In this document: positions 1 through 43,392 of the stretch, in pieces
How the letters are laid out: each line of letters starts with the position of its first letter
Position numbering within the stretch: position 1 is the stretch's first letter
Source: Actinomycetes bacterium
GTDB lineage: Bacteria; Actinomycetota; Acidimicrobiia; Acidimicrobiales; Poriferisodalaceae
Assembly: GCA_024228575.1 (NCBI GenBank)
Contig: JAAETH010000852.1
Span: 1-43,392 of the forward strand
DNA: 43,392 nucleotides
Direction: 5' to 3'
Notes under the pieces: model-generated
What the model saw: the letters and a program-made list of their open reading frames with translations, nothing else
Databases searched by the model: none
Told to the model about the DNA's origin: nothing
Position numbers and translations under genes: made by a program

Positions 1-86
1 CTGACGAGCTCACAACCGAGTTCGGACAGGCTCTTCGCCAGGTCGACTATGCCGGTCTTGTCAAAGACCGAAAGTAGTGCACGCAT
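1..86 (-). CDS. purH: Bifunctional purine biosynthesis protein PurH, N-terminal fragment
   Basis: Only the first 28 or so codons are inside the window; the gene continues off the left edge. The peptide begins MRALLSVFDKTGIVDLAKSL, which matches the conserved opening of the IMP cyclohydrolase (MGS-like) domain of PurH. That enzyme performs the last two steps of IMP synthesis (AICAR formylation and ring closure) in the cytoplasm. The ATG at 84-86 is preceded by a GGGAGC ribosome-binding sequence about six bases upstream, which supports this start. The upstream 180 bases separate it from a divergent small gene and hold no further coding sequence that I can support. The identification rests on a short but characteristic stretch. 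Confidence 0.8.
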   Translation of the reverse strand, partial: MRALLSVFDKTGIVDLAKSLSELGCELV

Positions 87-42382: not shown

Positions 42383-43018
42383 CTATCCCTTCACCGCATC
42401 GCGAACGACGACGACGGCACCCTTGGGCCCGGGCACGGAGCCCTTGACCAGGATGATCTCGGCCTCGGCGTCGGACTTGACGACCGTGAGGTTCTGAGTG
42501 GTGACCTTCTGGGCACCCATGCGGCCTGCCATGCGTGTTCCCTTGAACACGCGTGCAGGGGTCGCACAGGCTCCGACGGCACCGGGCTTGCGGTGCACTC
42601 GGTGAGCACCGTGGCTCGCCTTCTGGCCCGAGAAGTTGTGACGCTTCATCGTGCCGGCAAAACCCTTGCCCTTTGAAACTGCGGTGACATCGATGCGCTC
42701 GCCGGCCTCGAGGAGGCTTGCGTCGATCTGTTGTCCGACCTCGTACTCACTGACATCGTCGAGGCGAAGCTCTACGAGCCTTACGCCCGGCTCGACACCA
42801 GCGTTCGCGAAGTGGCCAGCCTCTGGCTGAGGCAAACGGTTCTCGTTCACCGAGCCGTAGGTGACCTGGAGCGCTGTGTAGCCGTCGTTCTCGGCTGTCT
42901 TGATCTGCACGACGCGGCACGGCGACACTCGGAGCATCGTCACGGGTACGACGCGGTTGTCATCGTCCCACAGCTGTGTCATGCCGACCTTCTCGGCAAC
43001 AATCGCCTTGTTCGCCAT
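42383..43018 (-). CDS. rplC: 50S ribosomal protein L3
   Basis: A 211-residue L3, starting MANKAIVAEKVGMTQLWDDD. SKGKGFAGTMKRHNFSGQKA, SHGAHRVHRKPGAVGACATP and GTRMAGRMGAQKVTTQNLTV form the family core. The ATG at 43018 is preferred to a frame extension of 40 codons that reads through the hairpins. The AAGAGAGAGA stretch before it is only a fair ribosome-binding site. rpsJ, normally directly upstream, is not within the remaining 374 bases of the window. Confidence 0.98.
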   Translation of the reverse strand: MANKAIVAEKVGMTQLWDDDNRVVPVTMLRVSPCRVVQIKTAENDGYTALQVTYGSVNENRLPQPEAGHFANAGVEPGVRLVELRLDDVSEYEVGQQIDASLLEAGERIDVTAVSKGKGFAGTMKRHNFSGQKASHGAHRVHRKPGAVGACATPARVFKGTRMAGRMGAQKVTTQNLTVVKSDAEAEIILVKGSVPGPKGAVVVVRDAVKG

Positions 43019-43075
43019 TGGAGGCGTCTCTCTCTTGACGGTTGTGAGCCACCCGGCTGAGTGACCCGCTGCTGA

Positions 43076-43096
43076 GGGAGGGCGATGAGCCCTCCT
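43076..43096 (-). other. Leader hairpin 1 before rplC
   Basis: GGAGGGC/GCCCTCC form a 7-bp stem with a five-base loop (gatga), extendable by one G-T pair. It lies about 58 bases before the rplC start. The bases that follow it on the plus strand (CCTCTGTTGC) resemble those flanking the tandem repeat next to it, so it may be a diverged member of that set. Confidence 0.6.
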
Positions 43097-43099
43097 CTG

Positions 43100-43157
43100 T
43101 TGCGGGCACCCGAGGGTGCCCTCCTCTATTGCGGGCACCCGAGGGTGCCCTTCTCTG
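43100..43157. repeat. Two tandem 29-bp units, each a strong hairpin
   Basis: Two consecutive 29-base units (43100-43128 and 43129-43157) differ at only a few positions. Each contains GGGCACC, a CGAG tetraloop and GGTGCCC, giving 7-bp GC-rich stems at 43104-43121 and 43133-43150. On the minus strand each hairpin is preceded by a purine-rich AGAGAAG/AGAGGAG stretch that looks like a ribosome-binding site. No T-run follows, so they are not classical terminators. Confidence 0.8.
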
Positions 43158-43169
43158 TTCTCTCACGCG

Positions 43170-43201
43170 AACGCTCCGCATGGCATGGCCAGCGGAGCGT
43201 T
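43170..43201. other. Long imperfect hairpin in the rplC upstream region
   Basis: AACGCTCCGC pairs perfectly with GCGGAGCGTT over 10 bp; inside, TGGC pairs with GCCA around an ATG loop with one bulged A. It lies about 150 bases before rplC. On the plus strand it is followed by a modest T-rich stretch (GGTTCGGTTTTG), so on that strand it could act as a weak terminator. Confidence 0.55.
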
Positions 43202-43326
43202 GGTTCGGTTTTGCTTCGTGGTTCCCGTCTTGCCGTTGAACACGGCAGGGCCTTCAAAGACGTCGATTCGAGGCTTGGGCTGAGCCCATGCCAGCTGCGC
43301 CACCGGGTGCGGCGCACGAAGATCGA

Positions 43327-43355
43327 ACGATACCCGCGCGATCGGCGGGGCACAA
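43327..43355 (-). promoter_or_regulatory. Possible promoter for the rplC operon
   Basis: On the minus strand TTGTGC (43350-43355), 17 bp, TATCGT (43327-43332). The -10 is the same hexamer as in the groES promoter. Transcription would start near 43320 and give an untranslated leader of about 300 bases containing all the hairpins. It competes with the open frame over the same bases. Confidence 0.35.
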
Positions 43356-43392
43356 CCCCTCGAAGCCGGCGAATTCGAATCTGCAACGACAA

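Follow-up and report, generated by a model that had tools for sequence, protein, structure and literature searches.

The leader of the Escherichia coli S10 operon stands before rpsJ, not before rplC, and in L4-controlled S10 leaders of this type an attenuator hairpin is followed by a U-tract. Published work on the E. coli leader describes it as a long, highly structured element heading the operon that includes the genes for uL4 and adjacent proteins, with uL4 controlling both transcription and translation (PMC10931766). Another candidate leader at an S10-type operon is the rpsJ motif RLC-47-1, described for Peptostreptococcaceae (PMC11109978), and 20 new ribosomal leaders (r-leaders) are collected in Table 1 of Eckert and Weinberg (2020; PMC7247131). 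That table has no rplC leader of Actinobacteria and no leader for uL3, and its sole entry with rplC as the first gene is L4 in Archaeoglobi. Among open-licence papers, supplements aside, we found no earlier account of an rplC leader in Acidimicrobiia, and one elsewhere is possible.

Here we consider positions 43019-43392 of a window, the whole stretch of DNA that was analysed (43,392 nt). We read this stretch as the likely 5' untranslated leader of an S10-type operon that begins with rplC, and probably as an autoregulatory ribosomal-protein leader. With the E. coli leader it shares length, a high degree of structure and its place at the head of an operon for uL4 and neighbouring proteins (PMC10931766), while differing in that it precedes rplC instead of rpsJ and has no match in Rfam. 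RLC-47-1 is comparable as a candidate leader at an S10-type operon, although that motif lies upstream of rpsJ and in another phylum (PMC11109978). What it has in common with the r-leaders, as presented in PMC7247131, is a structured, covarying element of the 5' UTR found consistently ahead of ribosomal-protein genes. For Acidimicrobiia, which are known mostly from metagenomes, it would supply the largest ribosomal-protein operon with a candidate leader family.

Contig, promoter and 5' hairpins

The window is one complete contig of a 960-contig genome assembly. The rplC gene (uL3; 42383-43018, minus strand) starts at 43018 and is the first of a series of ribosomal-protein genes (rplC-rplD-rplW-rplB and onwards). 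Eight bases ahead of its ATG stands AAGAGAGAGA (43027-43036, minus strand), Shine-Dalgarno-like by sequence, the counterpart of which in the nearest relatives is AAGAGGAAGA; the relatives named here are mostly assemblies of Acidimicrobiales and of other Acidimicrobiia. The first-pass annotation took the leader to have replaced rpsJ, the S10 gene, and proposed locating that gene. A search of the whole assembly, the completeness of which is listed as 96.9%, found no S10 gene in it, and a search of 61 genomes, 60 relatives plus that of the window, gave rpsJ in 49. The contig ends 37 bases past the -35 element described below, so that 43019-43392 is all the sequence upstream of rplC on it. Since the contig ends there and the assembly has no S10 gene, the lack of rpsJ in the window is an edge effect, and a replacement is not supported. 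The assembly (G000) comprises 6.15 Mb in its 960 contigs, and the other genomes of the family are far smaller, 1.7-4.0 Mb. Five related contigs (L011, L012, L024, L025 and L029) start 566-674 bases upstream of rplC, approximately where rpsJ begins, as though a repeat immediately ahead of it had broken the assemblies.

The candidate promoter proposed at first, TTGTGC-17-TATCGT, stands up to comparison with the relatives. Its -35 element TTGTGC (43350-43355, minus strand) and, after a 17-base spacer, its -10 element TATCGT (43327-43332, minus strand) are recognised by sequence and in the relatives: a comparable pair of the type TTGNNN-16..19-TANNNT lies upstream of the conserved core in 44 of 55 non-redundant loci, whereas 100 shuffles gave 2.7 on average and 8 at most. 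From these elements we infer a transcription start near 43317-43323, which would place the leader in the 5' UTR with its promoter upstream. The transcript would begin with P0 (43272-43316, minus strand), two 5'-terminal hairpins predicted at 43316-43296 and 43292-43272 (folding z = -2.64). Sequence from promoter to core is also well folded in the relatives, 33 of 43 giving z < -1 against shuffles (mean z -2.08), and what is kept there is the structure, the sequence of the P0 stem itself being variable.

The conserved core

Between the promoter and rplC lies a conserved block that was absent from the first-pass annotation, a structured core of 108 bases (43163-43270, minus strand) delineated by alignment, covariation and a covariance model. 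It comprises GACGUC, the helices P1 (43261 and 43259-43255 with 43218-43213), P2 (43250-43247 with 43227-43224) and P3 (43199-43192 with 43179-43172), and a tail UUCGCGUGA (43171-43163), all on the minus strand. P1 and P2 are separated by an internal loop (AAGG at 43254-43251 on the 5' side and AACCA at 43223-43219 on the 3' side, together spanning 43219-43254, minus strand, and enclosing P2), which we propose as the site of protein contact. The consensus in the relatives reads GAYGUC, a stem with the conserved internal loop, GCACAACC, RYGCUCCG...CGGAGCRY and the tail UUYGCGUGA.

The structure was evaluated on loci with rplC. From 111 of these, 77 distinct cores remained after leaving out exact duplicates, the window itself found again (L009), two loci with too short an upstream region (L066 and L114) and one not matching the P3 pattern (L099); alignment A1 holds 56 of the 77, picked by eye to thin out near-duplicates. 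Its 18 base pairs are 17 predicted by RNAalifold and one added by hand (columns 22:55). Among the 56 cores standard pairs occupy 97.2% of 1007 cells, compared with 83.0% in shuffled alignments, and double changes occur in 143 cells, compared with 42.5, neither value being reached in any of 500 shuffles. With the pairing partner slid along A1 as a control, only 32-46% of the cells are paired. A scan of all column pairs, with no structure supplied, places pairs of P1-P3 at eight of the top nine positions. The one other pair, 18:61, is non-canonical and lies inside the internal loop, where its covariation suggests a specific non-canonical contact; the two columns are mostly non-standard (A-G 20, C-C 11 and G-U 8 of 56). 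The columns invariant in A1 (n = 56) are G7, A8, G10, U11, G20, A58, C59, G66 and C67, and three of these (G20, A58 and C59) belong to the internal loop.

A covariance model of 98 positions, R1, also matches 20 of 20 held-out genomes. These were chosen among the R1 hits in the class outside the window's order and their cores are not among the 56; 19 of them have best partial BLAST identities of 72-94% and L254 has no BLAST match. In their alignment 95.0% of the cells are paired, with 40 double changes against 12.3 in shuffles and 32-56% pairing in slid versions, figures that lean towards structure because the genomes were found with R1 and the alignment was fitted to it. Both alignments point to a conserved secondary structure supported by covariation.

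In the window's genome R1 matches strongly once (83.2 bits), and the second-best hit, of 21.3 bits, overlaps that one on the opposite strand. Of 296 genomes of the class Acidimicrobiia 132 have a match at E <= 0.01, and for 130 of these E is < 1e-8. In a sample of the phylum 35 of 396 genomes are matched, 28 strongly and all of these in the same class, and seven weakly elsewhere (E 1e-5 to 7e-3). None of the seven weakly matching stretches encodes any of the 16 ribosomal-operon proteins of the window (tblastn). Of four inspected more closely, L182 as sequence, one lies just past a gene end (L178), one at a gene end (L179) and one is intergenic (L180). We take the weak matches to be chance hairpins. 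No relative was found in viral contigs.

Could such an element act without a ligand, as a constitutive 5' stabiliser protecting the mRNA, as an insulator, or as the remnant of a terminator that stops read-through from upstream? P0, kept at the 5' end of the transcript as a structure and not as a sequence, would suit this, and so would a hairpin downstream of a 23S gene in another locus (L190, 4745-4813), which ends in a GUUCGCGU similar to the tail of P3 (a weak match, 5.7 bits). The invariant bases of the internal loop and the non-canonical covariation at 18:61 exceed what a plain hairpin needs, and a core lying downstream of the promoter is not a terminator of upstream genes only. We regard this explanation as unlikely, and favour a ribosomal-protein leader, for which a 98-position model and, as a candidate protein-binding site, a short internal loop are now defined.

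The tandem hairpin array

The attention of the first-pass annotation had been drawn to hairpins closer to rplC. Two tandem units of 29 nt (unit 1, 43122-43150; unit 2, 43093-43121; minus strand) are 97% identical, each contains GGGCACCCTCGGGTGCCC, and their 13-nt linker occurs in a third copy, after which there is a third hairpin GGGCUCAUCGCCC (43080-43092, minus strand). The array folds strongly (43089-43165, z = -4.35, as good in none of 200 shuffles), as does the region as a whole (43000-43392, z = -4.76, none of 100 shuffles); beside the start codon (43019-43092) folding is at chance level (z = -0.34). The hairpins first reported are therefore real as tandem, strongly folding units, with two corrections: the CGAG loops belong to the plus strand, the sense strand having CUCG loops, and at the predicted energy minimum the two units form one long hairpin with each other instead of two separate ones. 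The AGAGRAG stretch noted ahead of each hairpin is present in the sequence, as AGAGAAG and AGAGGAG.

It had been suggested that the units represent a mobile intergenic repeat family, and a genome-wide search for the 29-bp unit was proposed. Their palindromic character would fit such a family, and yet with three mismatches allowed the unit occurs in the 6.15 Mb genome at two places only, both within the array, and the core has a single strong match. The likelihood of a mobile or dispersed palindromic repeat is practically nil, and within this assembly (96.9% complete) it is refuted. The tandem hairpins were duplicated locally and have no counterpart elsewhere in the genome.

Against Rfam, neither a scan of 20 relatives nor a permissive search of the window gave a family at threshold. 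The one weak local match, over two hairpins at 43070-43121, is to the L2-Alphaproteobacteria leader (RF03142; 22.6 bits, E 0.002). Since the score is below the curated gathering threshold of 37.8 bits, membership of that family was rejected; the match lies outside the conserved part, in the lineage-specific array, and none of the 20 relatives reaches any Rfam threshold, which leaves kinship with RF03142 highly improbable.

Seen across the relatives, the array occupies the least conserved part of the stretch, an example of how an eye-catching repeat may draw attention away from a less obvious but conserved element beside it. The two closest relatives, L010 and L011, have no array. The relatives share no general structure from the core to the start codon (of 53 loci 12 have z < -1; the mean z is -0.42), and repeats are found there in 9 of 77 loci, counting the window. 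The eight others all carry related units of about 31 nt, of the GCGGCCCGCTGAGCGGGC type and unlike those of the window, and belong to another genus. In L032, L034-L038, L056, L061, L064, L067 and L070 the number of hairpin units of about 31 nt lying between the core and rplC ranges from one to four; across these closely related genomes this gives a natural copy-number series ahead of a ribosomal operon. The presence of two unlike units at the same position suggests that the site tolerates, or favours, the duplication of hairpins.

These observations bear on whether the array itself is the regulator, be it an attenuator or the site of a ribosomal protein. Its strong folding and the recurrence of a different tandem array at the same place in another genus speak for such a role; its absence from L010 and L011, copy numbers between one and four in a single genus, and the failure of the core-to-start stretch to fold better than shuffles across the relatives speak against it, and we hold it to be very unlikely. 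Most likely the tandem hairpins are a spacer-like local duplication, and the sensor would lie elsewhere, in our preferred reading in the core. The rplC reading frame is open upstream as far as a GTG within the first tandem hairpin (43138-42383, minus strand), probably by chance, as the array is missing in the nearest relatives.

Proposed regulation and the split S10 operon

Comparison of the genomes brings out a promoter, a covarying structure, a position before rplC, a single copy and co-occurrence with a separated rpsJ. A new family of ribosomal-protein leader is the best reading, in keeping with where the element lies, its structure and its single copy. A ribosomal-protein-binding leader was among the functions proposed in the first pass, although the support for it comes from the core upstream of the tandem hairpins and not from the hairpins. 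The proposed parts of the leader are its own promoter, P0, the core (P1-P2 with the internal loop, then P3 and the tail UUYGCGUGA) and the lineage-specific tandem array. An operon protein made in excess would bind the nascent RNA at the internal loop between P1 and P2, lowering expression; the ligand may be uL4, by the precedent of the E. coli S10 operon, or uL3, as the product of the first gene. With it the cell can probably adjust its output of ribosomal proteins.

Binding might affect transcription, through pausing or attenuation at P3, a step we put forward with less conviction than the binding itself. An attenuator, as suggested at first, is a possible form of such control, although no U-rich terminator was detected in a scan of the sense strand. 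There the U stretch after P3 is weak and the tail is U-poor; the attenuator hairpin with U-tract of E. coli-type S10 leaders has no terminator-like counterpart on the sense strand. The same leader could instead act on translation, the bound protein blocking the loading of ribosomes, a variant compatible with the best explanation. Translational control is usual for ribosomal-protein leaders, and the distance from core to ATG is most commonly 45-50 bases (median 48, 77 loci). The same distance ranges from 9 to 154 bases, and pairing of the core with the ribosome-binding site was rejected, the duplex energies in four tests being no better than permuted ones (784 to 1450 of 2000 permutations as good). 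Simple masking of the ribosome-binding site fits poorly with the wide spread and the lack of pairing, which argue mildly for transcription control at P3. Control of translation is a tentative option, and control at the level of transcription has slightly better odds. Mimicry of 23S rRNA was also considered and rejected: in the 23S rRNA of two relatives nothing resembled the core (best match 6.5 bits, E 1.1). A hand scan gave 49 and 47 loose hits, which weigh neither way.

The genomic context was compared in a set chosen by hand, consisting of 36 positives, about one per family among the 132 genomes matched, and 20 negatives listed of 164. In 33 of the 36 positives the core immediately precedes the L3 domain, both being on one strand; of the rest, one (G045) is cut by contig ends and two (G233 and G337) are weak matches elsewhere. 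The element thus appears, by the comparison of these genomes, consistently upstream of ribosomal-protein genes. S10 and the L3 domain are 499-14369 bases apart in the positives (27 of 33 measurable), and 279 and 276 bases apart in G233 and G337, as in other negatives. Both genes are present in 18 of the 20 negatives, 12 of which, all from other orders, have distances of 141-358 bases. The remaining six (476-730 bases) all belong to the window's own order and had been missed by the default search; with the filters off, three gave divergent full matches (33.5, 28.7 and 19.2 bits), G073 a partial match only (14.6 bits), and G318 and G336 none.

As most genomes without the leader keep rpsJ beside rplC, the leader goes with the split S10 operon, and the family is tied to a rearrangement of that operon; what the sequences give is a correlation among related genomes. 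One may imagine, with considerable reserve, that after the S10 operon was cut between rpsJ and rplC the rplC part gained a promoter and an autoregulatory RNA whose internal loop (NNNG/NACCN) would be a protein-binding site of a kind not described before, perhaps one for uL3, and that the tandem arrays downstream expand and contract by lineage and may tune expression.

In genome G009 two ORFs on the opposite strand, of 206 and 456 aa, part rpsJ from the leader and rplC (L233, 6264-8349). With opposite-strand frames between the two genes, rplC there very probably has a promoter of its own. The longer ORF is, by eye, serine hydrolase-like.
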